The notes beneath the pieces were generated by a model, which searched no databases, was not told where the DNA came from, and was given only the letters and a program-made list of their open reading frames with translations. A DNA stretch of 64,000 nt. Source: Bugula neritina. Its lineage: Eukaryota > Bryozoa > Gymnolaemata > Cheilostomatida > Bugulidae. Positions within the stretch are counted from its first letter, which is position 1; each line of letters opens with the position of its first letter. Shown one piece after another: positions 21,167 to 57,249 of the stretch. Where the stretch lies: contig OZ037770.1 of assembly GCA_964035545.1 (NCBI GenBank), positions 4,507,662 to 4,571,661 on the forward strand, written 5' to 3'. A program made the position numbers and the translations under genes.

Positions 21167-21184
21167 GTGGTGGCAGCGGTGGGA
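21167..21184 (+). promoter_or_regulatory. Primer-binding site, tRNA-Leu type
   Basis: Directly after the LTR, TGGTGGCAGCGGTGGGA is the complement of TCCCACCGCTGCCACCA, which I recall as the 3' end (with CCA) of a eukaryotic tRNA-Leu. It would prime minus-strand synthesis. The tRNA identity is from memory. Confidence 0.7.
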
Positions 21185-21197
21185 TAGTGCATCCAAG

Positions 21198-32068: not shown

Positions 32069-32960
32069 TTGGCACTAATATTCTACCTTACACTAATAGT
32101 CTACCTTACACTAATACTCTACCTTACACTAATAGTCTACCTTACACTAATACTCTACCTTACACTAATGGTCTACCTTACACTAATAGTCTACCTTGCA
32201 CTAATGGTCTACCTTACACTAATAGTCTACCTTACACTAATATTCTACCTTACACTAATATTCTACCTTACACTAATAGTCTACCTTACACTAATGTTCT
32301 ACCTTACACTAATAGTCTACCTTACACTAATATTCTACCTTACACTAATATTCTACCTTGCACTAATATTCTACCTTGCACTAATATTCTAGCTTACACT
32401 AATAGTTTACCTTACACTAATATTCTACCTTACACTAACAATCTACCTTACACTAATATTCTACCTTACACTAATATTCTACCTTACACTAATAGTCTAC
32501 CTTACACTAATAGTCTACCTTACACTAATATTCTACCTTACACTAATAGTTTACCTTGCACTAATATTCTACCTTGCACTAATATTCTAGCTTACACTAA
32601 TAGTTTACCTTACACTAATATTCTACCTTACACTAATAGTCTACCTTACACTAATATTCTACCTTACAATAATAGTCTACCTTACACTAATATTCTACCT
32701 TACACTAATATTCTACCTTACACTAATATTCTACCTTACACTAATATTCTACCTTGCACTAATAGTCTACCTTACACTAATAGTCTACCTTACACTAATA
32801 GTCTACCTTACACTAATATTCTACCTTACACTAATATTCTACCTTACACTAATATTCTACCTTACACTAATATTCTACCTTACACTAATAGTCTAGCTTA
32901 CACTAATAGTCTAGCTTACACTAATAGTCTATCTTACACTAATATTCTACCTTGCACTGG
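32069..32960 (+). repeat. 18-bp minisatellite
   Basis: About 49 tandem copies of CACTAATANTCTACCTTA (N is G or T), with scattered variants (CCTTGCA, CTAGCTTA, CTAACAAT). 18 is a multiple of 3, so the first 320 bp form a spurious ORF of Leu/Ile/Tyr hexapeptides. Lies about 1.4 kb upstream of the ATG of the large gene. Confidence 0.95.
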
Positions 32961-34313: not shown

Positions 34314-37300
34314 ATGGCAACAGCTGGTGAGTGAATTTAAATACTCTTTTATTCACTTATTTCTTGGAAAATAGAAATATATAAACTCTGAAGATATGTT
34401 GATGTTGTGCCACCAGAATTTAATATAAATCTATAAAACTATTTTATTATCATGCACTACTCTCTATAGCACTGTTTTATGTCACCAATTAGCGTATTGC
34501 TTTGAGAATAGTAGAATAGATAATATTATGCAAGCAGTTGGGTTAGAGTTGTGTTATCTCAACACAATAAACACTGAACTATAAACTATACATTAAATGA
34601 TTATTTAGAAAGAATATAAAGCTATCCAATAAAATAAATATTAGTCATTGTTATGATTACTGAAATCTACCATATAATAAATTTATTCAAGCAGTAGATA
34701 TGACAGGTGTCACAGCGACATACATCACCTGCTAGCACTGTGTAATAATCACACTGTCACTGCATGATGTTACAGAGAAGATGAGAATCTGGTTCAGACA
34801 TTCTGGACAGCCACCTGTAAGCTGGTCAGATGTAAGGAGAGCTGATACCAAGTTATATACTACTGCTGAGGTGAAACGTGAAGTTGGGAGTTATTACATC
34901 ACAGATCTCAAGCTGAGAGGGAAAATTCCAAGTAACATTGGAGAGATTGCAGGTAAAGCCCTGTGTCTACATGTTTCTAACCTGACTGACAGAGCAAGTC
35001 TAGACAAGTGAGTGTCTATTAAAATAGCTGTGTAAATGTTAAACAAGTTCATTTATTAAATAATGATAATACTGCTATTTATGATGATGGATAAAATATA
35101 ATGGATAATATAATATAAAATATACCTGATTGAATACACCACTATAGTATACAGAGTACATACTACTATTTGTGTTATTTATTAAATAATAATGGATAAT
35201 AGACACTGAAGCTGAAGCATATTTTTGCTCATAATATATTCATACAGTATAATATAAATCAACATAGTAATATGTGCAACATTGTATGTAATCCAAATGA
35301 GCTTATAAAACTGCCTCTACTGCTACTTCATAATATATGCTGAATCTAAGCATGCTTTTGCTCATAATATATGCATACAACATAATATACATCAACATAG
35401 TAATATGTGCAACAATGTATGTAATTCAACTAAGCTTATAGTTGTATAGAAACTAGGAAGTGCAAAACTGCCTCTACTCGATATCACTGACTAAATCATG
35501 TTTTATGTATATATAGCTAAAAATATGAGTAATGCACAGTCTATAATATATTATACAAAAGACTATGTTATGCCCGCAACTGCAACTGCAAATGTTATTC
35601 AATATATTAATTTACAGAGCATTGTAGAGTGAGGCCTTGTGTACTATAAACTGACAGCTAAGCTTGCTAAATGAAGCTTCCTCTTCTCACCTACAACATA
35701 ATATTATAAGTGAAACTTTTTGTGTTTTTGTGTTAACAATAAGTGCGTTTCTTGCATATTTTACTTAGTTAAATACACAAGTAGCATGATATAATAGTAT
35801 ATATTATTTTGATATGGTAGACATAAATACATGACACACTTTATATTACAGTCTATGTAAGCTGACTCAGTTAGAGAAACTAGACATAGGATGGAATCAT
35901 CTCGACATAGTACCAGAATTTGTGTCATCACTCACATCAATTAAAGAGTTGAATATGGAAAACTGTAAATTATCTACTCTACCTGAGAGGTTTGTGGAAC
36001 ACAGTCCTTTTTGTTTCAAACACTAAATAATTCACATGTTGATATAATGCGTACCAAGTATTGCTAATTAGTATGTCACTATGTGTTGAAAAGCATAAAG
36101 CTATAAATTACGTACTTCTTGAGGCTATACGATATTAGAGTTTTTGAAAACTTGAAAATAAATATGTTTCAGTTATCTGGCATTACATTTCCTATTGCTA
36201 TAAAACCTTTTTAACAAATATTATAACACCCAATTGTAGTTTACTATAGTGTGTATTTCTCATCAAATGGTTGTTACTTTGAATATGCCTTAGCGTAATA
36301 AATTTGCTACTTGGATATTTTACCTGATGGAATATGCAGTGCATGCTATGATACAGTAGACTAAATATATCACATACTTTATATTACAGCCTTATTAAGC
36401 GGACTCAGTTAGAAAAACTATACATAGGATTGAATCCTCTCTACACAGTACCAGAAGTTGTGTCATCACTCACTTCACTGAAAGAGTTGAATATGTGGGA
36501 ATGTAATTTATCTACTCTACCTGAGAGGTTTGTGTGCCACAACAAATTTTATATATCACTTTTAACATTCAATAATTGTTATTCTGAAGCAGAATTTCAA
36601 CACAGTAAATACTACATTGAGATGTTTATACTTTTTCTCTGCAAAAACTACATATGAATCTCACAGTTTCTGGGGATATTGTCAATTAGCACACTGTCTA
36701 GAAGTTTCCTCTGCTTCACAAGTTCTTTTATAGTGTTTCTATATCTTTTTGAATATTTCCCATGATAGGTTGACTGGGCTGTTTTTCAGTAATCGCTTTA
36801 ATAACTCTTTTCATTATAATATAACTATAGCTACTTCTGTACACATAATTGGTATATATTATATTATTATAGTAACACAGCTTCTTATTATTGTTTAATT
36901 TGAATACACAAGTGCTATATACAGTATTTATATAATATTATCCTGGTACAGTGAATTACATATATTACACACTTTATATTACAGTCTGTGTCAGCTGACT
37001 CAGCTAGAGAAACTTGAGCTAGCAAGAAATTCTCTCCACACAGTACCAGAAGTTGTGTCATCACTCACAGCACTCAAAGAGTTGAATATGGGGAGCTGTA
37101 AATTATCTACTCTACCTGAGAGGTTTGTGGAACACAGTCTTTCTTGTTTCAAACACTCAATAATTCACATGTTGATATAATGCTTACCAAGTATTGCTAA
37201 TTAGTATGTCACTATGTATTGTTGAAAAGCATAAAGCTATAAATTACATATTTCTTGAGGCTATATGATATTAGAGTTTCTCAAAACTTGAAAATAAATA

Positions 37301-40300
37301 TGTTTCAGTTATCTGGCATTACATTTCCTATTACTATGAAACCTTCTCCAATAAATACTATAGCACTCGCTTGTAGTTTACTAGAATCTAGTTCACATTA
37401 AATGCTTATTAGGTTTCGGTATTTCACTTTGAATTTGCTTTGTTGCAATAAATATGTTTCTTGGATATTTTACTTGATTGAATACACAAGTAGTATATAC
37501 TATTACCATGATACAGTGGATTAAACACGTAACGCACTTTATATTACAGCCTGTGTAAGCTGACTCAGTTAGAGAAACTGGACATAGGATGGAATCCTCT
37601 CAACACAGTACCAGAAGTTGTGTCATCGCTCACATCACTTAAAGAGTTGTATATGGGGAACTGTAAATTGTCTACTCTACCTGAGAGGTTTGTGGAGCAC
37701 AGTCTTTCTTGTTTCAAACACTCAAAAATTCACATGTTGTTATAATGCTTACCAAGTATTGCTAATTAGTATGTCACTATGTATTGTTGAAAAGCACAAA
37801 GCTATAAATTACATATTTCTTGAGGCTATATTGAATTAGAGTTTCTCATTACTTGAAAATAAATATGTTTCAGTTATCTGTCATTACATTTCCTATCGCT
37901 ATAAAACTTTTTTAACAAATATTATAGCATCCACTTGTAGTTTACTATAGTGTGTATTTCTCATTAAATGGTTATTAGAGCCTTCTGTACTTTACTATGA
38001 ATATGCCTTAGCGTAATAAATTTGCTATTTGGATATTTTACTTGATTGAATATGCAGTGTTTGTTATGATACAATAAATTAAATATATCACATACTTCTT
38101 ATTACAGCCTGAGCCAGCTGACTCAGTTAGAGAAACTGTACATAGCAGTGAATCCTCTCAACACATTACCAGAAGTTGTGTCATCACTCACATCACTTAA
38201 AGAGTTGAATATGATAGGCTGTGAATTATCTACTCTACCTGAGAGGTTTGTGTGTCACTACAAATTTTATATCATTTTTAACGTTCAATAATTGTTATTT
38301 TGTAGGAGAATTTCAGCACAGTAAATACTACATTAAGATGTTTATACTTTTTCTCTGCAAACCCCCATACGAATCTTAACGTTTCAGAGGATATTGTCAA
38401 TTAGCACACTATCAGTTGTATAGTTGATTATTATTCACACACTGAGTATATATAATAATTGAATACTTGTATGCTATTATAATAAACTGTTAACTTCTCA
38501 TGCTCTGCATGTAATATGCTACAATAAGTTGCTTGGTTGTTAAATTGTATATAGTTTTACCTGGTTGAAAACAAAATGTGAATACAGTATAAAGTTTTAT
38601 GGTAATGCAGACTACATATATATGTGAATATAGTGAATATAGTGAATATAGTATAAAATATTATAGTAATGCAGACCACATATATATCATACACTTTATA
38701 TTACAGCCTGTGTCAGCTGACTCAGTTAGAGAAACTAGACATAGGATGGAATCCTCTCAACACAGTACCAGAAGTTGTGTCATCACTCACATCACTTAAA
38801 GAGTTGAATATGAGGAGCTGTAAATTATCTACTCTACCTGGGAGGTTGGTATTGCACAATATTATCTCTGTTTCAAACATTCAATATTTCACTTCTTTAA
38901 TGCTTATCAAGTAGTGTTATGCTATTTTATTATATATTGCCAACGTATGTTAAAAAACCTATAGATATGCATTTTCGAACTTGTCCAATAGTTTGTGCTA
39001 AGGTGGAAATAATACAGCCTCATGGTATGCTATTGTATATCCTTATATCACAAGAACCTTTTGTAATGAATAATAAAACAGCCATCCGCAGTGTACTGGC
39101 AATCATGGTAATAATCGAATCTTTCTTAGCTTCTTGCGTCAATCACTTTGACTATCCATTACTGCAATGAATTTTTTTCTGAACTTTTTACCTGACTGAC
39201 TGTGCTTAGCAATATAACATGTACAGTGTATATTATTATGACACAGTAGACTACATATATCATACCCTTTATAATTATTGCAGTCTATGCCAGCTGACTC
39301 AGTTAGAGAAACTAAACTTAAGAGGAAATCCTCTCAACACAATACCAGAAGTTGTGTCATCGCTCACATCACTTAAGGAGTTGGATATAAAGAGCTGTAG
39401 ATTATCTACTCTACCTAAGAGGTTTGTGGAACACAGTCTTTCTTGTTTCAAACATTCAATAATTCACATGTTGATATAATGCTTACCAAGTATTGCTAAT
39501 TAGTATGTCACTATGTATAGTTGAAAAGCATAAAGCTATAAATTACAATTTTCTTGAGGCTATATTGTATTTGAGTTTCTCAAAACTTGAAAATAAATAT
39601 GTTTCAGTTTTCTGGCATTACATTTCCTATTGCCATAAAAAGTTCTTCAACAAATACTATAGCACCGCTTGTACTTTACTAGAATCTATTTCAGATTAAA
39701 TGTCTTTTACTTTAAATATGCCTTGTCAAAATAAATTTTTTTTGCATGTTATACCATATTGAATACACCACTGTAGTATACACAGTACATAATACTATCC
39801 TGATACAGTGGATTGCATATATTATGCACTTTATATTACAGTCTATGTCAGCTGACTCAGTTAGAGAAACTAAACATGAGAGATAATCCTCTCAACACAG
39901 TACCAGAAGTTGTGTTATCACTCACCTCACTTAAAGAGTTGTATATGTGGAACTGTGGTTTATCTACTCTACCTCAGAGGTTTGTGTGTTACAATAATTA
40001 TTTCTTTTGTTTTAAACATTCTATATTTCACTTCTTTAATGCTTCTCAAGTAGTGTTATGCTATGATATCATATATTGCCAACGTATGTTGAAAAACATA
40101 AACATGTATTTTTTTAACTTATCTAGTTGTTTGTCCTAATATAGAAATAATACAATTTTATAGTGAGCCATTGTATATCCTTATATCACAATACTTTTTG
40201 TAATCAAAAATAAAGCAGCCCTCTGCAGTTTACTGACAATCATGGTAATAATCGAATCTTTCTTAGCTTCTTGCGTCAAGCACTTTGACTATCCATTACC

Positions 40301-43300
40301 GGAATGAATTTTTTTTCTGCATTTCTTACTTGGCTGACTGTGCTTAGCAATATAATATGTACAGTGTATATTATTATGACACAGGAGACTACATATATCA
40401 TACCCTTTATAATTATTGCAGTCTATGCCAGCTGACTCAGTTAGAGAAACTAAACTTAAGAGGAAATCCTCTCAACACAGTACCAGAAGTTGTGTCATCA
40501 CTCTCATCACTTAAGGAGTTGGATATAAAGAGCTGTGAATTATCTACTCTACCTGAGAGGTTTGTGGAACACAGTCTTTCTTGTTTCAAACATTCAATAA
40601 TTCACATGTTGATATAATGCTTACCAAGTATTGGGAATTAGTATGTCACTATGTATAGTTGAAAAGCATAAAGCTATAAATTACAATTTTCTTGAGGCTA
40701 TATTGTATTTGAGTTCCTCAAAACTTGAAAATAAATATGTTTCAGTTTTCTGGCATTACATTTCCTATTGCCATAAAAAGTTCTTCAACAAATACTATAG
40801 CACCGCTTGTACTTTACTAGAATCTATTTCAGATTAAATGTCTTTTACTTTAAATATGCCTTGTCAAAATAAATTTTTTTTGCATGTTATACCATATTGA
40901 ATACACCACTGTAGTATACACAGTACATAATATTATCCTGATACAGTGGATTGCATATATTATGCACTTTATATTACAGTCTATGTCAGTTGACTCAGTT
41001 AGAGAAACTATACATAGGAGATAATCCTCTCGACACAGTACCAGAAGTTGTGTTATCACTCACCTCACTTAAAGAGTTGTATATGTGGAACTGTGGTTTA
41101 TCTACTCTACCTCAGAGGTTTGTGTGTTACAATAATTATTTCTTTTGTTTTAAACATTCTATATTTCACTTCTTTAATGCTTATCAAGTAGTGTTATGCT
41201 ATGATATCATATATTGCCAACGTATGTTGAAAAACATAAACATGTATTTTTTTAACTTATCTAGTTGTTTGTCCTAATGTAGAAATAATACAATTTTATA
41301 GTGAGCCATTGTATATCCTTATATCACAATACTTTTTGTAATCAAAAATAAAGCAGCCCTCTGCAGTTTACTGACAATCATGGTAATAATCGAATCTTTC
41401 TTAGCTTCTTGCGTCAAGCACTTTGACTATCCATTACCGGAATGAATTTCTTTTCTGCATTTTTTACCTTGTTGACTGTGCTTAGCAATATAATATGTAC
41501 AGTGTATATTATTATGACACAGGAGACTACATATATCATACCCTTTATAATTATTGCAGTCTATGCCAGCTGACTCAGTTAGAGAAACTACACATAGAAG
41601 GAAATCCTCTCAACACAGTACCAGAAGTTGTGACATCACTCACATCGCTTAAAGAGTTGGATATAAAGAGCTGTGAATTATCTACTCTACCTGAGAGGTT
41701 TGTGGAACACAGTCTTTTTTTTTAGTTTCAAATGTTCAATAATTCACATTTTGATATAATGCTTACCAAGTATTGGGAATTAGTATGTCACTATGTATTG
41801 TTGAAAAGCATAAAGTTATAAATTACATATTTCTTGAGGCTATATTGAATTAGAGTTTCTCATTACTTGAAAATAAATATGTTTCAGTTATCTGTCATTA
41901 CATTTCCTATCGCTATAAAACTTTTTTAACAAATATTATAGCATCCACTTGTAGTTTACTATAGTGTGTATTTCTCATTAAATGGTTATTAGAGCCTTCT
42001 GTACTTTACTATGGATATGCCTTAGCGTAATAAATTTGCTATTTGGATATTTTACTTGATTGAATATGCAGTGTTTGTTATGATACAATAAATTAAATAT
42101 ATCACATACTTCTTATTACAGCCTGAGCCAGCTGACTAAGTTAGAGAAACTATACATAGGAGGGAATCCTCTCAACACAGTACCAGAAGTTGTGTCATCA
42201 CTCACATCACTTAAAGAGTTGAATATGGAGAGCTGTGAAATATCTACTCTACCTGAGAGGTTTGTGTGTCACAACAAGTTTTATATATCACTTTTAACAT
42301 TCAATAATTGTTATTTTGAAGCAGAATTTCAACACAGTAAATACTACATTAAGATGTTTATACTTTTTCTCTGCAAAAACTACATATGAATCTCACCGTT
42401 TCTGAGGATATTGTCAATTAGCACACTATCTAGAAATTTCCTCTGCTTCACAAGTTATTTTATAGTATTTCTATTTCTTTTTGAATATCTCCCATGATAG
42501 GTTGACTGGGCTGTTTTTCAGAAGTCGTTTTAATAACTATTTTTATTATATTATAATTATAGCTACTTCTGTACACATAATTAGCATATATATTACATTA
42601 TTATAGTATCACAGTTTCTTTTTACTGTCTAATTGAATGCACAAGTGCTATATACAGTATCTACATAATAATATCCTGATACAGTGAATTACATATATTA
42701 TGCACTTTATATTACAGTCTATGTAAGCTGACTCAGTTAGAGAAACTAGACATAAGAGGAAATCCTCTCTACACAGTACCAGAAGTTGTGTCATCACTTA
42801 CATCACTTAAGGAGTTAAATATGGAAAACTGTAAAATATCTACTCTACCTGAGAGGTTTGTGAAACACAGTCTTTCTTGTTTCAAACACTCAATAATTCA
42901 CATGTTTTTATAATGCTTACCAAGTATTGTTAATTAGTTTGACAATATGTAGTGTTGAAAAGCATAAAGCTATAAATTACAATTTTCTTGAGGCTATATG
43001 ATATTAGAGTTTCTGAACACTTGAAAATAAATATGTTTCAGTTATTAGGCATTACATTTCCTATTGCTCTATAACCTTCTTTAAATAATCCTATAACACC
43101 TACTTGTGGTTTACTAGAATCTATTCCCCATTACATGCTTATTAGCTTTCGGTAGTTTACTTTGAATTTGTTTTGTTGCAATAAATTTGTTTCTTGAATA
43201 TTTTTCCTGATTGAATACACAAGTATGGTATAATATACAGTATATAATAATATCCTGATACAGTGGATTACATATATTATGCACTTTATATTACAGTCTA

Positions 43301-46300
43301 TGTCAGCTGACTGAGTTAGAGAAACTATACATAGGATCGAATCCTCTCAAAACAGTACCAGAAGTTGTGTCATCACTCACTTCACTTGAAGAGTTGGATA
43401 TGGGGAGATGTGAATTATCTAATCTACCTGAGAGGTTTGTGTGTCACTACAAATTGTACATCATTTTTAACGGTCAATAATTATTATTTTGTAGCAGAAT
43501 TTCAGCACAGTAAATACTACATCAAGATGTTTATACTTTTTCTCTGCAAACCTCCATATGAATCTCACCTTTACAGAGGATATTGTCAATTAGCACACTA
43601 TCTAGAAGATTCCCGACGTCACAAATAAGTTTATAGTATTCCAATATCTTTTTTGAAATGCTTCCCATGAGAGGTTGACTAGGCTTTTCTTAAGAAATTG
43701 TTTTATCAACCCTTTTCATTATATTATAATGATTGTTACTTCTGTACCCATAATTGGTATATATTGTAGTAATTTTAGTAATTACTAGTTTTGTGGGCTT
43801 CTAGCGAGCAATATCTTTATATTATCTTCCAATAATATCACGGCTTGTAACAGGAATGAATGATTTATTAATACGCAGTAAAAGTAGTAGCGAAACGATA
43901 CATCCAGTATCAAGGGTAAAAATATACATTTATCTTACACTAACTAGCTATCACACTCTGAGTATGGCTGCTATCTACATCCGGCGCCCTCCGCGCATCG
44001 CTGGGGGTCTCATGTGACGGATATCGGATTGGCTGGGGAGCACGTGGGATAACATACTACACTCCCCACTACACTGCCCCCCACCCCAGCAGGAAGCCCA
44101 CCTTCCTGATAATACCAAAATAAAAAAATAAAATAACAACAAAAAAACAATAAGATATCTGCATCACAAGATCAAAATTTATACTTAGGCCAACGGTTTA
44201 TTAAAAAAAAACATCTGGTTAAAATATAAAAATTAGGCACTATAAAACTAAGAGATTGTATCTGTACCAAGAGCTTTTTGTACGGCACCGAGAGATATGA
44301 TGTGTAGAGAGACGGTAAGTGAGGCACCACCTGCGGCGTAGATCAGGAGGACAGCTGGAAAGAGTTAGGGACAGGGAAATAGAGAGGGGAAAGAGAACGT
44401 CATCTACGACACTGGGGTTGTCACAAAGACGGGTGTCGGGGCAATGTGGAAGGTAGACACTCAGTCTTTATCATCTCTCTTGAGCTGGGCCACAGAGTCC
44501 CGGAGAGCCTTGAGTTCAGAAGCGGCGGCTGATATTCTAGACGCCAACCTCTCTCTCTCTAGTTCATGCATCCGTTGCTCCATCTCTCTTAGATTTCTAG
44601 CAACAGAGGAGTGGCGTTTGGGGATGAAGACTGCCATCGCCACTTACGAGAGGGTCGAGGGGAGACAGGTGAGGACGGGCATCATCTCTGGGGGACTTCT
44701 ATCCGTTGTAAGACTAGTCGGAGTACGATGTTGGGACGGGGCGCAGTGTGAGCGGGGGTGACGGGCGAGGTACCAGGAGCTTCCTAAGCCCAGGGGGTTT
44801 GGGGCAGGGTTCTTGGGTAATGGCACGGGGAGCGGGAAATTCTTGGCTCAGCCGTTCGTAACGAGCAGGGTCTGAGATGAATGGCTTGATGAGGCCGAGA
44901 AAAGTTGGGAAGGAAAGCTTGTCCACATTGTAGAGATGTCCAACGTGACACTCCATAGTCCTCTGGTGACGAAGGGTGTAGTCCCTGTGGTAGCTGTACT
45001 CCCCACAGGGGCAGAAGGTGGTGATGAAATGTTGATGGATGTGTACTCGGAGGCGGCGAGGTGTGGTGAAATGCTGTTGACACAGCCGGCAGGTGGTGCA
45101 GTTGTCGTTTCCTCTATCTTGTTGAATCATGTTCTCGGTATCCTGGGTAACCCAGCTAGACCGGGTTATGAGTATCTCCGGTAGTGTAGCGGAAGTAGGT
45201 TCCTTCTCCCAAGCCATCTCCAATGGTGGCATATCATCGTAGTTAGAAGAGCGAGTGATATCTGAAAGAGCAGAATTATTGTTAGATCGAATTTGATCTT
45301 TACAGCATAATTCTGATGACAATCGACTGTTACTAGTCTGAGAGTCATGCATATTTTTGTACGGCACTCGAGAGACTGTGTTTGGACGTGTAGACTGACT
45401 GAGAAACATTGTGTCAAGCTCCAGATCTAGTAGATCTCCGGCCATTGTTATGTCCTCGTCGTCTTTCACGTTTAGCCCAGTCTCCAGTAATTGTGATTCA
45501 ACCAGAGTGATTAAATCAGAATTAACTGATGTCAAACCCGTTTCCATAGATAGGAATACTAGGGCTAGGCAGGCTTACTTTGGAACTTGGTATTTGGAAT
45601 CATACTCAACGTTCAAGCTTGGATTTTAGTGGTTTTAGTATGTCTACCTTTGGTGATGTCAGCGTAAGAAAAGACTGGACAGCGTGTTTATTTCGCATGG
45701 CTAGAACTGTTTGCCCCGGGCGCAATAATTCCACCTAATACTCCGCCCTCGCAAAAGTTGATATTTTCGCGGTGTTCACAACTTCCTTCGTTTCGCTACC
45801 AGTTTCTCAGTACCGCACCCAGCTTGGCCTTCATGTCTGCCGCTTGTAACGCAGTCGCATACGAAGTCCCAAATATACTAGGGGTTGCCTAGTACGTTGT
45901 CCACTTTCCAAGGGAAGTGGTGTACTAATTGGGGGAGATGGTGTAGTCACTGCTCGTGGCGGTGTACTCACTGATGGACTGTTATGTTCCATCGGTGGCG
46001 TTTCCGGCCTACTATTGACTGCTGTATTATTTTCAAGATTTCCGGATACAGCCCTCCCCCGGGGGGTTTTGCACTTCCGGAGCTGAAACAGGTTCCGGAA
46101 GTGGTGGCGTTAGACTTGGCGCTGAGGGTGGTGGGCGCACTTCTGGTAACGGAAGTTGTCTTTCCTGCCTCACCAAGTCTTCTGCCCGCGGCATGACCAC
46201 TTCATACTCTGGTTCATGTCGTCGCCGCTAGCGCGTTGCTGTCTGCCTCCTGGGCTCTAACAACCGGGGGGGGGAAGGGGAAGTTCTCCAGCCGCACCTG

Positions 46301-49300
46301 GGCTAGCCCAATACAGCTTCAAGGGAGCCTCATTCTGGATAGACACCTGTCCTGAGCGCTCAAGCTTGTAGGTGTGATTGGGCATCACTTCAACTACCGC
46401 GTAGGGTCCCACGAACTTAGGCTGTAGCTTAGCCGCCTGTCCTTGACGCCTACGGTAGTTGACCATCCACACCCAGTCTCCAACTTTGTAGAGGGGTGGT
46501 TCCTCGGAGTCTTCTTTTCGCACCTGCCACTGAATTTCCCGTAGTATTGTGTGTGCGACCTTCATTTGCTTTACCAATTTGCTGACATACTCGTGGATGG
46601 AGTAGTCCTGCTCAGGAATGTGGTAGGTGAGGTCATCTGGCACCCTAGTCTTTTGAACGAGCATCAGGAGGTTAGGGGTCTCACCAGTACTGGTGTGCGG
46701 TGTGCTACGATAGGCCCGCATGACTTGCGGCAACACCGTATCCCATTCCTTCTGACTCCGGTCGAGAAGTAGACTGCGGAGTGCATCGCCCAGCATCCGG
46801 TTGTTGCGCTCCACCACTCCGTTTTCCTGGGGGTAGTATGGAGTGGTCCTGCTTTAATTTACTCCTCAGAGGCAGCAAAGATCGCTCATCAGCTGAGACT
46901 AAAATTGAGCCCCCTGGTCCGAATGTATATGCTCAGGCAAGCCAAAATAGCAGAATACATGTTGGTCCAGCACCCTGGCCACTGTTGGAGCGGACGCATC
47001 TGGGATAGCCAGAGCGTCTGCCTACCTAGTGAAGTGGTCAGTTAATACTAGGATCCAACTGTTTCCTCTGGGGGTTAGGGGCATGGGTCCGACCAGGTTG
47101 ACAGCCACCACTTGCCACGGCCTTCCAGCATATAGCCTCCACCGTCCCGCTTCACCAAGGAGACGACCATGCTTGCTGGCCTGGCAGATTTCGCACTGTC
47201 TTACTCTGATTCGTACATCACGCTCCATGCTAGGCCAGTACCACCGGAGTTGTAATTTGGTATGCACCCTCTGGGCTCCTGCGTGAGCCTGTTTGTGGGT
47301 GTTCCATACTAACTCCCGGCGGATAGCAGCTGGGCAGACTACCCTCTTCTTCTCGGGGTGTCTGTTGCTTGCGGCCAATGTCATGGTCAGCAGATAATCC
47401 GGCCCGATCCGCAGGGAGTCCCAACGTTGACAATACAGCCGTAATTCGGCGCATCTCTGCCTCAGCTTTTCTTCATTGGGTCGTCGCCCTTCTTTCTTGG
47501 CTTGGTACACGTCGGCTACCACTCCCAGAGGGTTTTCCTGGAGTTTTCGTAGCTCCCTAACGTTACTGGCTAAGACAGGGTTGGCGCGGAGGTTTTGTAC
47601 TACCTTCGGAGGCGTACCCGCCTTCTGTTGGAGTTGACCCTGGTCCCAGTCATACTCTATCTCAGGGTGGTCCAGTGCCGTCAACTAGGACCGCAGGGGA
47701 CTTCCATCCCTCTTCTCAATGTTGAGACACTGCCTACACCCTTCGTCTGGTCGCCGGCTCAGTCCGTCTGCATTGCCGTGCTTTTTACCGGGTCGATGTT
47801 TGATCCGGTAAAATAACTCGGCCAGGACCTTGAGCCATCTCGCGACCTGGCTAGACAGTTCTGCTCTCTTGCACAACCAAATCACAGAGGTGTGGTCCGT
47901 ACGCAGCCGGAACTTCTGGCCGTATAGATAAGGTCTAAAGGTCTTCACTGACTTGATTACTGCCAGCAGTTTCTTGCGGGTAGTGCAGAACTGTCGTTCA
48001 GTGGGTGAGAGAGACTTGCTGTAGTAGGCTACACTACTTCACTACGTTCCTGCACTTGCGACAGCACAGCGCCAACATTCTAGTCACTGGCGTCCGTGTC
48101 TAGGATATACTCCAGAGCGAAGTTTGGGTAGGCCAAGATAGGAGCCTCCAGCAGACGGCCCTTGAGGCAGTCAAACGCCCTCTGTTTGACGGAAGTCCAC
48201 TTCCAGGTCACCCCCTTTGCGGTGAGCCGATTTAACGGCTGTGCCACCCCTGCAAAGTCTGGTATGTATTGCCTGTAATACCCTACCCGCCCCAGGAAAG
48301 CCTGAAGTCCGGTCAAATCATGGGGGTAACCCAGTTTTCCACAGCTCGTACTTTTTCAGGATCAGTCGCCACGTAATGACGGCCGACGATGTGCCCCAGG
48401 TACCTCACCTCCGGCTGCAAGAGAGCGCACTTGGAGGGTTTGAGCTTCAGGTTGGCACCTCTGAGTCGTTCAAACACCTCCCGCAGACGACTGACGTGTG
48501 TCTGGAAGTCTGGGGAGATCACGATGACTTCATCGAGGTAGAGTAGCAGTGTCTTCCAGTGGAGCCCACTGAGGACCTGTTCCATGAGCCTCTGAAAGGT
48601 GGCAGGGGCGGAGGTCAACCCAAAGGGTAGTACTTTCGACTTCCACAGTCCGTCCCGTGTGATGAACACCGCCTTCTCCTGGGCGTCGGGACTCAGAGGG
48701 ACCTGCCAATAACCGCTCAGCAAGTTTAGTGTACTAAAGTACTTGCTGCCGGCCAGGGCGTCCAGAGATTCATCAATCCGGGGTAAAGGATAGGCGTCCT
48801 GTATGGTTACGCTATTTGGTTTGCGGTAGTCCACGCAGAACCGCCAACTGCCGTCTTTCTTCTGGACCAGGACAACCGGCGAGCTTCATTCACTATGTGC
48901 TGGCTCCTTCTCTTTTTCCGGCCCCAACCTCCTCATGGGTTGCCAGGTAGGGAGAGTCCCCGCAGCCAACGGTATCTCATGACAGACAGCTCTAGTCAGG
49001 CCCAAGTCATGGTCTCCGCTGCTGAACATTTCGTTGTACTCGCATAGCAACTTGGCCATAGCCTGTCGCTCCCCGTTGCTCGCGCAGCTATCACAGGACG
49101 ACTTGTACAACTCTTGGACATGTAGCGGGACGGTCCCCCGCCCTGGAGACGGGCGCTGTTGGGGACCTTCCGTCGCATCTCCCAGCGACGGCCCTATATC
49201 CTTTTCCTGAACAGAATGGAAACGGCCCAGTACAGACCCTGATGGTAGCTTTACCGCTTCTGAGAAGGGGTTGACACACTGCATCAAGATTTCTCCTCGT

Positions 49301-52300
49301 TCAGTCAGCCGGTTAAGACTACTGGCGAGTTGGAATCTTGCGTGCGCGCCTTCGACAACTCCCAACCCAGAGATCTGGCTACTGTTCACTCTACAGTAAA
49401 TGGTAGCCCGGGTACGGCCTGGTATTGTACAGTTCCGTATTACCTGCACGCCTCCCACTAGGGGACGGCCAGACTTGTTGACACAAGTGAGCTCCTTGCC
49501 GGCCATCAGTATAGCTGACTTGTTAAAGTCAATGCGGCAACCATGTCGCTTCAAGAATGGCATCCCTAGTATAGCATCCTCCTCTAGTTGGCTGATGACG
49601 AAGGTTTCCTGGATGGCCTGGTCGCGGACGCGTCCAGTCAGCTCTATAATACCGTAGAATGGGATACGCGACCCGTCTGCAAGAGTGCCAGGTTCCCCGG
49701 TATAGGGAGCTAATTCTCTCCTCTCCTTAGGGGGAAGAGCGTCAAAGACCCGACGGCTGAGGAGATTCGTGGTACACCCGGAGTCTAACAGGAAAGTGAC
49801 AGACCTGCCGGCCACCTTCCTGGTAAGAAATAGCTATCTCCATGTGGTTGTACCCTTACTCCCCCAGCGTGCTCGGTCTCGACCTGGTGGGGCAGTGCCC
49901 GTTTCGCCCGCGGTTTTCGGGGCCTCTTAGGGCGAGGTTTTCTCCGCGGAGGGGCGATTGGTTCCCCTCCGATGTCCGGATGGACCTTGCCAGCCGGCTC
50001 CATCTCTGGTAGCCAGCTGAAGCGGTTAGCGAGAGGCAGTGTGAATGGTTCCAGTCGCCGCTCTGGTCGACTGGTCCAACGGGGTGCCTGCCACTCGTGG
50101 GGGGTATACCGCGCTGTCCCTACGAACGCCCTGCGGTATCCACCTCGTGGTTCCTTCATTCTCGGCCTGCGGGGTTTGGAGGCGTCCGCGAGCCGTGGAA
50201 GTTTAATCGTTTCCCAGATTGCGGGCAACTCGAGCGGAGATTTCCTCGTGTGCCGCATCTTCAACATAAAGCAGCTGGCCTCAGAACCTCTACCCTCGGC
50301 CTCAAAGGTCCTTGGGTGGGTTCTGTTTGGGTTGGCACAGGCTAGGATCGCCACCAACTGTTCTAACATGGCTATCATGCGGTCCACCTCCGCTTCAAGA
50401 GGAAGGGTGGTGGTGGCGGCAGCCACTTGGACTGGATGGTCCGGTCCCGAAGTGATTTGTTGGGAGCTCACTTTAGCTCGATAGAATTGTTTGGCCAAGA
50501 TATAGGCCTCACCTTCATGCAGTGCATCCTCTATCGTAGTCACCCCTCTTGCATGAAGCTGGTGGTGTAAACCCAAATCATTGAGGAACTGTACAAAGGC
50601 GTCATAGGTGTAGTGTTCCCGGTGTGGTTCTGGCAAGTTGCTGTATGCGATCTGTGCCAGTCTCTTCACTAGGGTAGCATGATCCTGTAGTGGTGTGCGC
50701 ACTTCTTAGTGCAACCTTTGTGAACGGGCCCTGGCGTCCACAGCGGAGATGCCGAAACGGGCCCGCAGCGCAGCAAAGATCCCGTTTACACTGGATCCCA
50801 GTCCGTACGACTTGGCTTGTTTCGTCAGCGCCGTCCGTAGTTGAATCAGGGCTACTCGTGGTGGCCATCGAGTGATGGCCATGACTTCGTTGAATTCTCG
50901 AATAAATTGTTCAACATCTTCTAGGCCCGTAACATACTACACTTCCCACTACAACATTATATATTTTTATAGTAACACAGTTTCTTATTATTGTCTAATA
51001 AGTAAGAAAACTACTTTCTTATATTTATAATGACATCACATTGCAACATAATTGACTCAATCAACCGTATTGTGTAAAGCTCATTAGTAAAAAATCACTT
51101 AGTAGATTATATAGTATGTTTGATTTAGGTAATTCAAGTTCTACTTTTAATTATTTTGAAATAAAAGATCTGGTTTTATATTGTAAACCGAAGAGGACAA
51201 AAAAATTATTAAATATTGCAACTTTTTTTTTCATGCTCTCCTTTGGTTATCTATCTCCAATTCTCAGTGTAATAGAAGCCAATTTTTATCTTATTCCTGT
51301 TCTCAAACAGCCTGTTAATATATTGTTTCATAATTAATTTACAATTCTAAATTACGAATCAACTGGCCTTTAAAGGTGCAACATGTTCCTGCAAGCCGAT
51401 GACTTTCCAGAATTGTATTCTCTCATAGTGAAATAATTCACAACTTCTATTTCCTGTCTAGAAACTATAATACATTTATTAGGGTAATTAGTGAGAGGTT
51501 GTGGCAGAAGTATTTTATTTTACTTGAAATTACTTTAATGCTTTGCGTAGATGTTTCAGAGCTGTACTGTGTTTCTATTTTATGATAAATTGCATGTATT
51601 ATGGCACATAAAACAATATTCCTTATAATGATAACATCCATATAGTAGAATATCAGTGTGAACAGTTACTCAGTGATCAGAAGTGTCAGAAGTATTTTAT
51701 TTTCACTTCACATTACTTTAATGCCTTATGCAGATGCCACAGAGCTGTAGCCTACCATGTTCCTATTTGCTGATAACTGTATTATGGCACATTATACTAG
51801 GAATTTTCTACTCTGTGGTATAAAATACCATTCTTTCTAGTAGAATAACAGTGTGAACAGTTACTCAGTTATCTGCCATATAGAAAAAGATGATATATAG
51901 TATTACATGTAGGTTGTTGTCTTTTATGACAGTACTTAGTACAGATGTAGCACTTTTCTTACCAAATATATACTTACAATTATACTGTTACATTATATAT
52001 CTTTATAAAATACTTAAAATGTTATGCATCGTATATAATATGATACTCGTACATAATCGTAACTTAGACATATTTGTTTTCTTTCCTTAATTAATGTACT
52101 AATTCAAGGTATTGTATATAAACTTGCTATAGTAACTGCAACTTAGTACTATATTATGTGTAATTATTGTTATACTAATATTGGGTATCTTTATGAAAAC
52201 TATTATATCAATTACCTGTATAGCTAGGTCTAATAATAGAAATATTATATATTATTAGAATACAGAAATTAAAGAAGTTACAGAAACTCACAATTTCAGA

Positions 52301-55300
52301 GAATAAATTCACCAGTCTCCCATCTTCAGTGTGTGCATTGAGTAATCTGTACACACTGGATATATCCGAGAACAGATCCATGACATCCTTGAACCCGGAG
52401 ATACTACAGCTAACACATCTTGGGTCTTTCCATACATATGGATGTGATGCTCTTAAATCTCCTCCACTAGAAGTCTGTAAAAGAGGACTGGATGCTGTGC
52501 GACAATACTACACAGACTTGGTTAAAGGCGCTGGTAGAAATCTTCCATTTGCGACAATAGTCATGCTGGGGAACACCATGGCAGGAAAAACCAGTCTAAT
52601 CAGAACATTACAGAGCACTGACAAGAAGAGAGTTCTGACTGACAGAAGTCCTAATGCAGAGTATGATGAAACTACAAAAGTGTTTATGGTGGAAGAGGTG
52701 GAAGTAAATGGTACAACTCTTCGTTTCATAGATATGGGAGGCCAGGAGGTCTACCATATCACATACCATTTAACACTGAGACAAAATTGCGTACCAGTAA
52801 TTGTAGTCAACATGGAGCAGTATGATAAGATTTCAAATGAGTCTACAGACAGAGAGGCTGTGAGAAAGTTGGCTTTTGACTTCATGTCTCACCTCTATCT
52901 CACTCATCCAACTCTTGGTCCGCCTACCCTTGTCTTCACACACAAAGATAAGTTTTCGAGTGAAATTTTCCAACAGCTTCGAAAAAAGTTTCTTGAAGTG
53001 TCTGAGCAGTTTTGCAAAAATATTCTTGAAGAAGAGAAAAGTTTAGAAGGTGACTTTGCTCAAATTCAACATTTCACTGAATCGGACGGAAAAGTGTTTT
53101 CCAACGACAACATTTATGAGGTTGGGAAATTTGACGAGTACAAGATATTTGAAAAAATCAAAAAATATCTTCTTAAAAGTTGCCAACACTTTGTCAAGTC
53201 ACTTCCAAATGTTTGGGAGGATGTCAACAACAACATTCTGTCCTTGCAGACTTCACATAACACCTTTGATGAATTGTTGGCTGTGATAAACGGAAAGCAG
53301 GATAACATTGAAGCAAAGCAATTGGATCTGATTATCATGTACATGCATGATTGTGGCAAAGTTCTCTGGTATAAACATATTGATGCACTCAGGCCATACA
53401 TATTTCACAAGATCACGGAAATAACCAAGCTACTCTGTGTCTTGTATCATCATGATCCAGATATCTGGCAAAGTAGAGTGGATCAGTTCAAGCCATATTG
53501 CTGCAAAGAAGGAGTGAGGATTGAAAAAGAAGATTTTGGAGATTTTGTGAATTCATTTAGAATCAACGGCTTGATGACGAAATCTCTTCTTGAATATTTG
53601 ATCAGAAAAGAAACTTCGTTCACTGGTGATAATGATGTCGAAATTGCTGTTTGCTTGCTCAGAACATTTCGTTTGTTGTATGGCCCTTTGAATATTGATC
53701 CTGAAGAGTCTTACTTCATAATCCCTCAGTTTGCCAAAGAATCTTACAGCCTCTCCTACACTCAGCCAAAGGAGCTGATGCTTCATACCGACACGCAGTT
53801 TAATGGTCTGGCATTACCGCAGCATGTCTACCATCAGATGACGGTTGGTTTGCTGGAACTATTTGCTGATGATTCTGCCACAATACAGGTAAAGAAAAAT
53901 GGAGCAAATGTCTATCAAGATAGAATATACACACAGCTGATACATGATTATGAATCTAGGAGAGTTTTACTCTACACGTCATCTGATGCAAGTAATATCA
54001 CCAAAGCGTGGGAAAAACTCATTTCAGTCAACAATAACATCCTCAGACATGTGATGGAAACTTGGACTGCTAGTCGCCCAGTCACTGCCTGCATCTGTGC
54101 TCACTGCCTACTGCTAGGTGTTCCGTGCCCTAAAAAGTCTATTCATCCTAAATGGTGTTTTCGCTCCCTGAAGAAACCTTCACCAGTTGTCAAGAAGTGC
54201 AGCGGATCTTCAACAATTTTGTGCAATAATGAGGAAATCCTAAGAGCTCTGATTTTCCCATGTATGTATCACTAATAGTGTTTATTACTATGTTTTTAAA
54301 AATTAAAACTTTTGCCTACCACATAAATTATTTTCATTACTACAAACTCTAAACAAAACCTGCTAATTTTTTTTTAAAGCTGAAAATATTCAAAGAAAAG
54401 GCATTACGTCTCGTGTAGTAACATTCTCGTAAGGGTTCTGCCGCAACTTATATTTTAGCCACCATATAAGTTGATTACAGTATACATAGGAATATGTGAG
54501 CTGGTTGTAGTATATGTAGACTGGGTACATTATATGTAATATGTGAGCTGGTTGTAGTATATGTAGACTGACTGTTTTATTTAGGTGAGGCGTTGTCTGA
54601 GACAGAAACCGATGAGCTGGTGAAGCTATTGACTCAACTCAAACTTCGTAAACAGCAGAATGATGCAACCAGAATTGGTATATCTTTATGATACTCACTT
54701 TATCAAAATCAGCGATCTATCAATGTAGAACTTTATTTACATTGAATAGAAATGTTTTTAAAAGCTGATTTTTTTGTCAAGCGATCAAGGAAATGGCAAT
54801 TTTGCATTACTTCTAATTTTCAAATCCTGGTATTAGCCAATAAAATCATGTGACTGCAGATGATGATGGTGATCTGAGTGATCTCTCTGATGATGACGAC
54901 AATCTGTACCCTGATAAAGAGAATGAGGAAAGCGTGAAGTTAATACAACCCAACCTAAAGACTACCAAAAACCTGAGGCTTAAGAATCTTTTCTCAAATG
55001 CTGAAAAGGTTGGTGTATTAGTTTAGGGTCATAGTTCCTGCCGTTTAAGCATATGTTCACCTTATTCTATGGATTCTTATGTTTGTATAACTTATTCTTA
55101 AACAAAACCTTATAAACACCTGCATTTGTATCAAACTGACACTATTTACTGTTAGCTCTATTATTAGGCCATGTCTGCCTTAAACACGTTTAACTAGACG
55201 TACAAATATGTTAACTATTACTATCATTCATTACAGTGTTTAGTATGCTATTCTAACTATATTTGTATCCAGGTGTTCAGTATGACCAGAAAGAGGGGGA

Positions 55301-57249
55301 AAGCTCTGATAATAAACAACAAGAATTTTGTTGAAAGACCGGATTTATGCAGGGAAGGTTCAGATGCTGATGTTGAGAATATGTCTGTCATGTTGAGATC
55401 TCTCAAGTTTGATGTTGAGACACACACAGACCTGACAGCAGAGGTATGATATTATTGTTAGACTGAAAGCAACAGTATTCAAGCGTAGTAGCCTATAGCC
55501 TTCAGTTTATTGAAATGAAACTTGACACTTGAAGCAATTGAAGCAATTGAAGCAATTGAAGCAATCATATGTGACTATTATTTCAGTTTATCAATATCAA
55601 AAATAAGGAGTGTATAGGACACCCAAAAGATGTTTTCTGCTGGTCACAATTTTGTTTCATTTTTTGCACATTTTGAAATAATTATTTCATTCAATTATCA
55701 TAACTTTGTATCAGATATTTAACATAGTTATTTTCAAATTTGCAGGAAATGCTGTCTGCTGTCAAGTCTGAGATAAGAATAGAGAAAAACAATGGCTTGG
55801 GCTGTCAAATACTGGTTATTATGACTCATGGTGGAGAAGATAACTGTATCTATGGAACTGACCTTGAGCAGGTCAACCTTACAGACTTCTATGATTTGCT
55901 CGCTCCTTTGAGTCTGAAGCCTAAACCTACAGTTGTCATCCTAGAAGCCTGCAGTGGAGGTAATCACCCGTTAAGTAAATAACAGTATTTGTCTCGTTTA
56001 GTTGAGTAGTTTCAGTAGCAGAAACATCTCTGTGACTCAGCCATTAAAATTGTATTTATTGACTGTTTTCTTTTAATCTGAATTATTATATAAATTTATC
56101 CCAATACTTCTGTTACAGTAAACATTGAGGTGAATCTAGACAGATCTGGTCTTGCAGCAGCTCAAGAAGAAGAAACTGAAGCTGTCTCTTCTACACACTC
56201 TGAATCTGATGATGATATTGTATATCCTGAAACACCCAGTGTAATAAGACCCATCAGACCTGTCTCACCACCAGCACCTAGAATAGAAGAGCGTTGGACC
56301 AGACTAGATGTTGATAATCTTCTTGTTCTGAAGAGTAACGTCTGCTGTAAGTGTATACTAAATATTGATTGGCTAGTTTTACATGTGCACAGTTGCAGTT
56401 ATTCAGCAAGTTGTCTCTCCTTTATCCAATCTTTTAAACTTGCCTTTAAAAAATTATATGCAAACACTGCTCATTAAAACTGAACAAAATTTTAAAATAT
56501 ACTGAGCTTGCTCTGATTACATCATGCTTTTGGCTGCATTTAATATTATTATAGCATCAAAGAGACATCCTGAGTATGGATCTCCTATGATTAGAGCTCT
56601 AGTATCTTCAATCTACAAACATGCCAGTCACCGTGATCTCTACACCATCTTTCAGCAGGTAAGTTAAAAGCTCAAACGTTTTTTTGCTATTTTAACTTTT
56701 ACGCCAGAAACTATTCGTCATCGTGGCATCTCTTCCATCTCCATGTTCAAACCATCATGCCATTTGAAAGAAACAATTTAAGCTGTTCTGAGTACAAGAG
56801 AAAGTCATTCAGTGCTTTACTTGTTTGAATTGTGGAGTTTAGTCTCTGTTGTTACAGTTTCTTTAGAGTAATGGCTCAGTACTATATTGATAGTTTCTCT
56901 CCTCTTTTAATATGTTCTTGTAGTCTGCTAATAACTGGTCTCATTTATTAAATGACATTACTGTAGCGGACAACTTCAAAAGTTTTACTACTCAGAATTG
57001 TTAAAGTAGGATACAATATTCTACCAGCTGGGAGTTGTACCTTATTACTTTTAGTAGTGAATTGATGAACAGTCTCACTAGTCATTACTTACTCTACAGG
57101 TACAGACTAAACTAGTGAAGAAACTCTATGCAGATGAAAATTCAGAGAGAAGCAGAAATTTGATTGTAATCTGGAATACTCTTCCTTACCGTAAAAGACT
57201 TCACCTGTTTCCTGGCTTTGATGGATTTGGTAAAGAGGCCAAATCTTAA
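34314..57249 (+). CDS. LRR-ROC-COR-caspase fusion protein (24 exons, about 1,762 residues)
   Basis: Modelled exons: 34314-34326, 34776-35007, fourteen 138-bp LRR exons between 35852 and 43434, 52259-54261, 54585-54677, 54860-55008, 55273-55443, 55746-55959, 56119-56346, 56555-56658, 57100-57249. They sum to 5,289 coding bases with every junction in phase and no stop, which strongly supports one gene. The start is GCCATGG, a good Kozak context. N-terminal about 80 residues ([29 protein letters not shown]) lead into the LRRs; then ROC GTPase, COR-like region, acidic linker and a caspase. ROC-COR proteins act as GTP-regulated, dimerising switches, and caspases are activated by proximity, so I infer a sensor that drives proteolysis or cell death on ligand binding. 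No signal peptide or membrane segment: cytosolic. I do not know a described family with this architecture. A Gypsy element occupies its 8.8-kb intron. Confidence 0.85.
35852..43434 (+). CDS. Array of fourteen symmetric 138-bp LRR exons
   Basis: Exon starts: 35852, 36390, 36985, 37550, 38108, 38707, 39284, 39842, 40422, 40980, 41560, 42122, 42718, 43297; each exactly 138 bp, phase 2 at both ends, acceptor TTACAG or TTGCAG, donor AG|GTTTGTG (once GTTGGT). Each encodes 46 residues, two 23-residue LRRs: LTQLEKLxIxxNPLxTVPE then LTSLKELxMxxCxLSTLPER. All 14 are open. Because phases are identical, any exon can be skipped or duplicated without breaking the frame. The introns fall into three families by their first 100 bases (GTTTGTGGAACACAG, GTTTGTGTGYCAC, GTTTGTGTGTTAC), which shows growth by multi-exon duplication. 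Confidence 0.92.
39284..41697 (+). repeat. Tandem 1,138-bp two-exon duplications
   Basis: Exon starts 39284/40422/41560 and 39842/40980 are spaced by exactly 1,138 bp. Introns between them, including AATCGAATCTTTCTTAGC and GCATTACATTTCCTATTGCC stretches, are almost identical. This is recent unequal crossover of a unit with two exons. A second, larger duplication links 37.70-38.25 kb with 41.72-42.26 kb (exon offset 4,014 bp). Confidence 0.85.
43765..44073 (-). repeat. 3' LTR of Gypsy element 2
   Basis: 309 bp on the minus strand from TGTAGTGGGG to ATTACTACA, with an AATAAA signal near 43870. It is preceded (minus) by the purine-rich GGGGTGGGGGGCAG at 44074-44087. Unlike the LTR of element 1. 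Confidence 0.8.
44461..45547 (-). pseudogene. Gypsy element 2 ORF3: zinc-finger accessory protein
   Basis: Open from ATG at 45547 to 44714 (277 residues); a further fragment at 44643-44461 in another frame adds a coiled coil ([20 protein letters not shown]). It has C-x2-C-x12-H-x3-H (CRLCQQHF...HIHQH), then FCPCG-x11-H-x5-C and FLGLIKPFI, matching ORF3 of element 1 in order and spacing. A strong acceptor TTCTGCTCTTTCAG ends at 45262 inside the frame, followed by AT ATC ACT CGC, in the same phase and nearly the same bases as after the acceptor in element 1. The extra N-terminal part before it is not seen in element 1. Confidence 0.7.
45735..50235 (-). pseudogene. Gypsy element 2 pol, decayed
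   Basis: Pieces of one polyprotein in several frames: protease ([13 protein letters not shown], 49815-48886), reverse transcriptase (48834-48313), RNase H start (48316-48080), RNase H end (47948-47685), integrase zinc domain (47684-47022; [11 protein letters not shown]), and the integrase C-terminal half with GPY module (46817-46257; [10 protein letters not shown]). The catalytic YLDD is YLDE, another sign of death. Homology to element 1 continues to about 45735, including the pol tail and the ATATCAACTTTTG stretch after it. Confidence 0.85.
49972..50929 (-). pseudogene. gag: Gypsy element 2 gag, 5' truncated
   Basis: Starts in mid-protein ([16 protein letters not shown], matching VEQFIQEF of element 1). 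It has a TAA at 50708-50706, then [19 protein letters not shown]. The zinc-knuckle region has lost frame: the cysteines are recovered only with a one-base shift. ATTAAAC at 50207-50201 is the counterpart of the slippery site. The open frame continues past it into pol-frame sequence because of that shift. Confidence 0.8.
50954..52258 (+). other. Remainder of the intron before the ROC exon
   Basis: AT-rich. Contains an imperfect direct repeat: TCAGAAGTATTTTATTTT-like blocks at about 51503 and 51686, each followed by AGAGCTGTA and TACTCAG. No coding sequence. The acceptor used is ATTATTAG at 52251-52258; the later TACAG sites would give the wrong frame. Confidence 0.55.
52259..54261 (+). CDS. 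ROC GTPase and COR-like exon
   Basis: A 2,003-bp exon, residues about 726-1393. Three more LRRs come first ([30 protein letters not shown]). The GTPase has Walker [10 protein letters not shown] (K836), switch II DMGGQE (884-889), and FTHKDK (952-957) at the guanine-specificity site. A COR-like domain follows, recognised by [15 protein letters not shown] and by the winged-helix-like stretch ending in YFIIPQFA. The exon closes with a Cys-rich motif ([13 protein letters not shown]). The G4 site reads HKDK where Ras-type proteins have NKxD, a usual ROCO variation. All nucleotide-binding residues I can check are present. Confidence 0.88.
54585..55008 (+). CDS. Linker exons between COR and caspase
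   Basis: Two exons. The first (54585-54677) is helical ([17 protein letters not shown]). The second (54860-55008) is strongly acidic ([15 protein letters not shown]), then basic. The Asp clusters could be self-cleavage sites releasing the protease; that is inference. Confidence 0.75.
55273..57249 (+). CDS. Caspase domain exons
   Basis: Five exons, residues 1475-1762. The large subunit has [23 protein letters not shown] (Arg matching the S1-pocket Arg of caspases), MTHGGED with catalytic His1559, and LEACSG with catalytic Cys1600. The usual pentapeptide is QACxG; here it is EACSG. An acidic Ser/Pro-rich linker ([14 protein letters not shown]) stands where caspases are cut. The small subunit follows: [17 protein letters not shown] keeps the second S1 Arg but not the Trp of the usual SWR, then [17 protein letters not shown], and [17 protein letters not shown] matching the last core strand. 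Length and order fit a complete caspase fold. Stop TAA at 57247-57249. Confidence 0.85.

Follow-up and report, generated by a model that had tools for sequence, protein, structure and literature searches.

Does the DNA at 34314-57249 (+) of this stretch encode a single protein in which a leucine-rich-repeat (LRR) sensor is joined to a caspase, and what could such a protein do? The stretch as a whole (the window, 64,000 nt) corresponds to C6:4507662-4571661 of a genome of 215.8 Mb in 295 contigs. Our best explanation, to which we give a probability of about two in three, is that the gene belongs to a lineage-expanded set of single-chain receptors made of an LRR horseshoe, a Roc-COR GTPase, an acidic linker and a caspase, which would be activated by dimerisation and act in defence or cell death.

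The gene model was rebuilt with the raw sequence as the sole start and independently of the exon list of the first-pass annotation. It comprises 24 exons on the + strand (34314-57249) with a CDS of 5289 nt and 1762 aa; all 23 introns are GT-AG, every junction is phase-consistent and there are zero internal stops. The phase-consistent 24-exon model of the first-pass annotation is thus reproduced with the same exon count, as is its total of about 31 LRRs. Exon 1 (34314..34326, 13 nt) holds the ATG start codon, its boundary being placed by phase with exon 2 (34776..35007), which covers the N-terminal region and runs into the first LRR. The LRR array consists of 14 exons of exactly 138 bp with two LRRs each, to which exon 17 adds about 3 repeats. 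Exon 3 (35852..35989) is the first of these cassettes (phase 2-2), and the others are exons 4-16 (36390-36527, 36985-37122, 37550-37687, 38108-38245, 38707-38844, 39284-39421, 39842-39979, 40422-40559, 40980-41117, 41560-41697, 42122-42259, 42718-42855 and 43297-43434). After intron 16 (43435..52258, 8824 nt), exon 17 (52259..54261, 2003 nt) contains the last LRRs, the Roc GTPase and COR, as placed by the model and Pfam, and ends at the donor CCAT/gtatgt. Exon 18 (54585..54677) is a short linker of 30 aa, found in the model and in paralogs, and exon 19 (54860..55008) is an acidic linker with a motif of 15 residues, recognised by its recurrence across loci. The caspase p20 is split, based on the model and Pfam, between exon 20 (55273..55443; IINNKNF, REGSD) and exon 21 (55746..55959), which has the His (THGG) and the Cys (EACSG). 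Exon 22 (56119..56346; model and paralogs) contains a long acidic inter-subunit linker and the start of p10, with 11 motif residues. Exon 23 (56555..56658) belongs to p10 and has SKRHPEYGS, aligned by eye to SWRNPKRGS, which we take to be the corresponding caspase motif. Exon 24 (57100..57249; model and paralogs) carries the end of p10 and the stop TAA at 57247-57249. The model is a prediction from genomic DNA, and at that level the observation of an LRR-Roc-COR-caspase gene is confirmed.

Concerning the domains, a Pfam profile search of the translation placed the LRR families, Roc and Peptidase_C14 above their cut-offs, the LRR families far above. Roc scores 31.7 bits (cut-off 27), and its G motifs are GNTMAGKT (aa 830), DMGGQ (884) and THKD (953); GxxxxGK[ST], DxGG and THxD are intact in each of the 21 paralog loci that are aligned over these motifs. 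COR-A reaches 19.9 bits in this copy (E 7e-4), under the curated cut-off of 35.3, and because COR is weak here the Roc-COR exons of the paralogs were aligned. Of 22 available Roc-COR exons, 19 entered the alignment; L018 and L022 were dropped for a stop, and L029 was left out. Each of the 19 matches both Roc and COR-A at E <=0.01, the best COR-A match having E 2.2e-11, and five match COR-B. The profile of this alignment matches structures of LRRK2 as well as structures labelled 'Rab family protein', which we take to be C. tepidum Roco. With Roc followed by COR and with G1, G3 and G4 intact, the protein is predicted to be a Roco (Roc-COR) GTPase. The first-pass annotation had described a ROC domain with intact P-loop and DxGGQ, a COR-like region and a C-terminal caspase with its His and Cys, and had proposed a search of the translation for these three domains; ROC and the caspase agree with its description, whereas the COR-like region stays below the Pfam cut-off in this copy and is borne out by the COR-A matches of the aligned paralog exons.

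The caspase part is the stronger match, with 101.5 bits for Peptidase_C14 (cut-off 21.4), the catalytic His in THGG (1558), the catalytic Cys in EACSG (1598), the Arg of the REGSD stretch, and the p10 region in exons 23-24; by profile, His, Cys and p10 it is a predicted caspase. Its PDB matches come from caspases 3, 6 and 7 or from reconstructed ancestors of these (best 60 of 178; best 60 of 107), the top one being an ancestral effector caspase at E about 7e-19. Based on these best matches among those listed, the predicted caspase is of the animal type. The Gln of the QACxG motif sits in the Asp-binding pocket of caspases. It is replaced by Glu in this gene (EACSG) and its clade, is kept in the C7 clade, and gives way to Val or Leu in the clade at 33 Mb of C1. 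Cleavage after Asp may therefore be changed in this gene, and cleavage preferences may differ between clades.

These substitutions suit a different role for the same chain, in which the caspase part would be a regulator or scaffold (with altered specificity, or a decoy, for which cFLIP is the comparison) and would, for example, tune apoptotic signalling. The SQGC found where the His motif is expected in the paralog L021 (C6:15.22 Mb) points the same way. The His and Cys are, however, visible in 27 of 28 caspase rows and the first substrate Arg in all 28 (among the rows are three repeats of genes already included and, per set, one caspase not linked to Roc), and exons 20-23 have a low dN/dS of 0.06-0.33 in comparisons with the paralogs L030 and L031. 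We consider this regulatory role unlikely, and an active caspase within a receptor remains the preferred reading.

No CARD, DED, PYD or death domain exceeds its cut-off in this gene in Pfam, and a match to the EDAR death domain (18.2 bits, cut-off 27) falls within the LRRs. NACHT and NB-ARC ATPase families have zero Pfam matches at E up to 0.1; the predicted switch is Roc. The defence and NCBIfam libraries gave nothing notable; matches of the XopL, XopAE and XopAC types lie in the LRRs at 21-27 bits (cut-offs 450-600). NLR inflammasomes combine an LRR sensor, an NTP switch and a caspase output. They use a STAND ATPase and recruit the caspase via CARD or PYD, whereas the protein predicted here has Roc and a covalently attached caspase.

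Known eukaryotic Roco proteins differ from the predicted protein mainly in what follows COR. As far as the accessible sources describe them, LRRK1/2, MFHAS1 and DAPK1 share the Roc-COR tandem, with LRRs in LRRK and MFHAS1 and a link to cell death in DAPK1, but they end in a kinase or a death domain or have no effector, whereas a caspase is found here. The three Roco groups set out in the accessible part of PMC6337361 include no caspase. Trichoplax has at least 17 Roco genes, some of which are joined to CARD, death or TIR domains, and 37 Roco genes are cited for Ectocarpus (PMC4104024, accessible text). Trichoplax is thus, like the present case, an animal with many Roco genes joined to extra domains; a caspase domain is not named in that text, and a caspase link would there go through adaptor domains. 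As many as forty domain combinations of animal Roco proteins are given in the available text of PMC11378527, and a caspase could figure among them. The word Roc is absent from the portion available of a sponge study (PMC8242945).

Regarding the LRRs, the symmetry of the 138-bp exons (phase 2-2) means that duplicating or skipping any one of them would preserve the frame. When the 14 LRR exons are compared, the concave-face residues are hypervariable, with a pN of 0.41 at six positions vs 0.08 elsewhere and an overall pS of 0.15; only 1 of 100000 random six-column sets reached this pN. As the local pS at these positions is raised too (0.27), the local pN/pS is 1.5, not 2.7, vs 0.58 elsewhere. 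These values come from a simple pN/pS count, with no codon site model, at positions which follow the general LRR consensus and were chosen after the sequence had been seen. The LRR surface is diversified. A strict search for cassette exons upstream of exon 17, covering 21 paralog loci, detected 138-bp cassettes in four (L012, L015, L016 and L017) and 69-bp single-LRR exons in L024. A looser count of LRR motifs, covering the 18 of these loci that hold 2.3-3.1 kb of upstream sequence, found same-strand upstream motifs in 12 and none within that distance in the other six (L013, L014, L022, L023, L026 and L027); the opposite strand gave 1 motif in all, and shuffled sequence gave 0.02-0.24 per locus.

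A comparable pattern has been described for the LRR-ROCO genes of brown algae, read as candidate immune receptors, in which 72-bp LRR exons are shuffled and the concave face is under positive selection (PMC11378527, as far as the text is available). Both systems share an LRR-Roc-COR expansion, phase-2 LRR cassette exons and diversifying concave-face positions; the algal genes have one LRR per 72-bp exon, whereas two per 138-bp exon are found here, apart from the 69-bp exons of L024. Three algal members carry another C-terminal peptidase domain (IPR009003), and the word caspase is missing from the main text of that paper (PMC11378527). The algal expansions lend some, though unspecific, weight to an immune role over a non-immune one, namely developmental cell death or self-recognition between colonies or cells, with LRRs that would recognise self partners. 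Expansion and concave-face diversification would suit any recognition system, including that one, whatever the ligand may be. Even so we hold a non-immune role of the family to be rather improbable, and continue with receptors for defence or cell death.

Whether sensor and caspase are one gene depends first on how consistently the two parts occur together. At least 66 sequences in the genome, this gene included, match exon 17 over all or nearly all of its length with 57-100% identity, and 63 of them have no stops; since 66 of 157 candidates were scored, the family size is a lower bound. A further 23 COR-A hits do not overlap these matches, giving a union of 89 listed Roc/COR exons. Caspase exons were gathered both by Pfam and by the exons of this gene, and all counts cover the matches listed. 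A same-strand caspase exon lies <=8 kb downstream of 60 of the 66 Roc-COR exons and <=3 kb downstream of 57, an opposite-strand caspase exon lies downstream of none, and one of the 66 has an upstream caspase within 8 kb. When positions were randomly shifted by 20-200 kb, 1000 draws put on average 1.6, and never more than 6, of the 66 within 3 kb. For the union, 84 of the 89 listed exons have a same-strand caspase within 16 kb downstream and 0 an opposite-strand one; the other five have none within 20 kb among the caspase matches listed. Many of the Roc-COR copies are clustered on C6, C1 and C7. The family is expanded, apparently in a lineage-specific way, to some 84 loci in which Roc-COR and caspase exons are linked; a few of these loci have stops.

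Among 20 COR-A loci that were fetched, 18 have caspase exons and two (L009 and L010) do not; judged by eye, the latter look like ordinary Roco genes. The 18, together with three chosen loci and the window, form a set of 22 loci with both parts, in all of which the order and strand of the detected exons are identical. The distances between these loci in exon 17 and in the caspase exons correlate (r 0.97, 0 of 10000 permutations), while nine close C7 copies show no such correlation (r -0.11). Exon 19 is placed in order between Roc-COR and the caspase in 17 of the 22 loci, at E up to 0.5 and with several weak matches, and its motif has related LSD-x-SD forms elsewhere; exon 18 was detected in 2 of 21 paralog loci, which are the two closest among those fetched.

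The paralogs L030 (94% in exon 17) and L031 (87%) have exons 17-24 of the same lengths, with the splice dinucleotides kept and the same stop codon. Purifying selection is seen over exons 17-24 as a whole (dN/dS 0.22 for L030 and 0.30 for L031), and exon 24 is weakly constrained (0.85 and 0.72). On another reading there would be two neighbours: an LRR-Roc-COR gene whose frame closes with the stop at 54273-54275, and a separate downstream caspase gene. In its favour, a read-through of exon 17 meets a stop after a few codons both in this gene and in L030 and L031, and co-duplication could keep such neighbours together. The donor CCAT/gtatgt, however, is identical in L004, L007, L029, L030 and L031 (the sixth paralog, L028, is unaligned there), and beyond it the sequence diverges in L004, L007 and L029, the nearby stop being kept in L030 and L031. 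Also, the linker exons are in phase and under purifying selection (dN/dS against L030 and L031: exon 18, 0.19 and 0.36; exon 19, 0.37 and 0.27), and the strand agreement in the linked loci is total (84 same, 0 opposite), with 57 of 66 within 3 kb. We regard the two-gene reading as highly improbable. Chance chaining of exons, or another artefact, is ruled out by phase, paralog collinearity and dN/dS.

The single-gene reading is therefore well supported at the level of genomic DNA. The first-pass annotation had proposed a single-chain sensor and executioner: linkage, exon order, splice sites, the linker exon and purifying selection uphold the part about one polypeptide, and the role of sensor plus executioner is plausible, with added support from the hypervariable concave LRR residues.

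How would such a receptor work? Caspase activation occurs by dimerisation. Roco proteins dimerise via Roc-COR, and a nucleotide-dependent monomer-dimer cycle has been proposed for them (PMC6337361, accessible part). Taken together, the simplest reading of the predicted protein is a ligand-gated caspase activated by dimerisation, and we infer ligand binding, dimer-gated activation, self-cleavage and an immune role in the following order. The concave face of the LRRs would bind a ligand, microbial or danger-related, and binding would alter both the nucleotide state and the dimer state of Roc-COR. Two chains would thereby come together, and the caspase domains that they carry could dimerise and become active by proximity. 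The caspase might then free itself by cutting Asp-rich sites in the exon 19 linker and in the inter-subunit loop of exon 22, and the freed enzyme would cleave targets, the outcome being cell death or a response of the inflammatory type.

The order LRR-Roc-COR-caspase is already known from bacteria. The accessible text of PMC8195603 describes bacterial conflict proteins in which fast-evolving N-terminal LRRs, an AP-GTPase(Roc) and COR are followed by one of at least 24 kinds of C-terminal domain, one kind being a caspase, and an AP-GTPase with COR in bacterial conflict systems is also reported in the part available of PMC7159879. The claim of the first-pass annotation that no LRR-ROC-COR-caspase protein had been described was thus too strong, since a literature family with this order exists in bacteria (PMC8195603, accessible text). 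As far as they are described there, the bacterial proteins resemble the present ones in order, in having a caspase as a possible effector and in several paralogs per genome, and their predicted role against invaders is akin to the reading preferred here. They differ in that their effectors vary among paralogs, whereas 84 of 89 listed loci here are linked to a caspase, and in that the caspase here is of the animal type and the counterpart proteins are bacterial. One scan of prokaryote genomes with two tight conserved patterns gave 81 pattern matches and zero relatives. Horizontal transfer of the whole gene from bacteria is not favoured, given the animal-caspase matches and the absence of a relative in that scan. 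A search limited to open-licence literature found no description of an animal Roco-caspase protein. The novelty thus lies in the occurrence of this order in an animal, in the scale of the family and in the animal-type caspase.

A broader proposal, which we make tentatively and at somewhat less than even odds, is that the family forms a bilaterian NLR-like immune repertoire on a Roco chassis. Its some 84 linked loci would mostly encode predicted one-chain 'inflammasomes', with symmetric LRR cassettes whose in-frame duplication, shuffling or skipping would diversify recognition both in the germline and by alternative splicing, and would be an animal counterpart, using an animal caspase, of the bacterial LRR-Roc-COR-caspase proteins. 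Roco GTPases are known mostly through LRRK2 of Parkinson's disease. If the preferred receptor reading is true, an animal caspase would have a sensor and a GTPase switch of its own attached directly, free of adaptors, in an arrangement multiplied to some 84 loci, and the family would offer a test of Roco GTPases as dimerisation switches for proteolytic output. It would also connect cell-death signalling in animals with the bacterial conflict proteins that share this layout. The LRR ligand, the GTPase state and the caspase activity are modules that can be assayed separately.

Some caspase exons and loci stand apart from the linked set. Based on the Pfam listing, 64 of 150 caspase-exon matches have no listed Roc/COR exon <=9 kb upstream (on C2, C4, C8, C9 and others), and a few of these apparently unlinked exons are linked at 10-15 kb. 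The unlinked exons look like further caspase genes in an apparently large caspase set. L018 and L022 (both on C7) have a stop inside the Roc-COR exon, and these two loci and L021 are possibly pseudogenes or inactive members.

COX1 is found on contig C295, with a further copy on C6. Of the mitochondrial codes compared, the invertebrate code 5 suits this COX1 best (496.6 bits, vs 469.1 with code 4, 474.5 with code 9 and 489.1 with code 13), which indicates a bilaterian invertebrate, probably a protostome, and makes a sponge or cnidarian source unlikely; a pattern of the silicatein type, a weak test for a sponge, had no match. Extra COX1 copies lie on C17, C65 and C196, one of which lacks TGA codons; the extra copies are possibly symbiont or foreign material in the assembly. 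The window also contains several repeats around the gene, whose Ty3/gypsy-like and LINE-like names are family labels that we presume from their open reading frames. Upstream of the gene (21165-26668, + strand) lies a Ty3/gypsy-like retroelement whose pol frame is long and open, and a related-looking, frame-broken copy, seen by its ORFs, occupies about 44700-50900 of intron 16 on the - strand. A LINE-like set of ORFs at 16355-20910 (+ strand) consists of a zinc-knuckle ORF followed by an endonuclease and reverse transcriptase. An 18-bp minisatellite of about 49 copies occupies 32073-32958 and is open in more than one frame.
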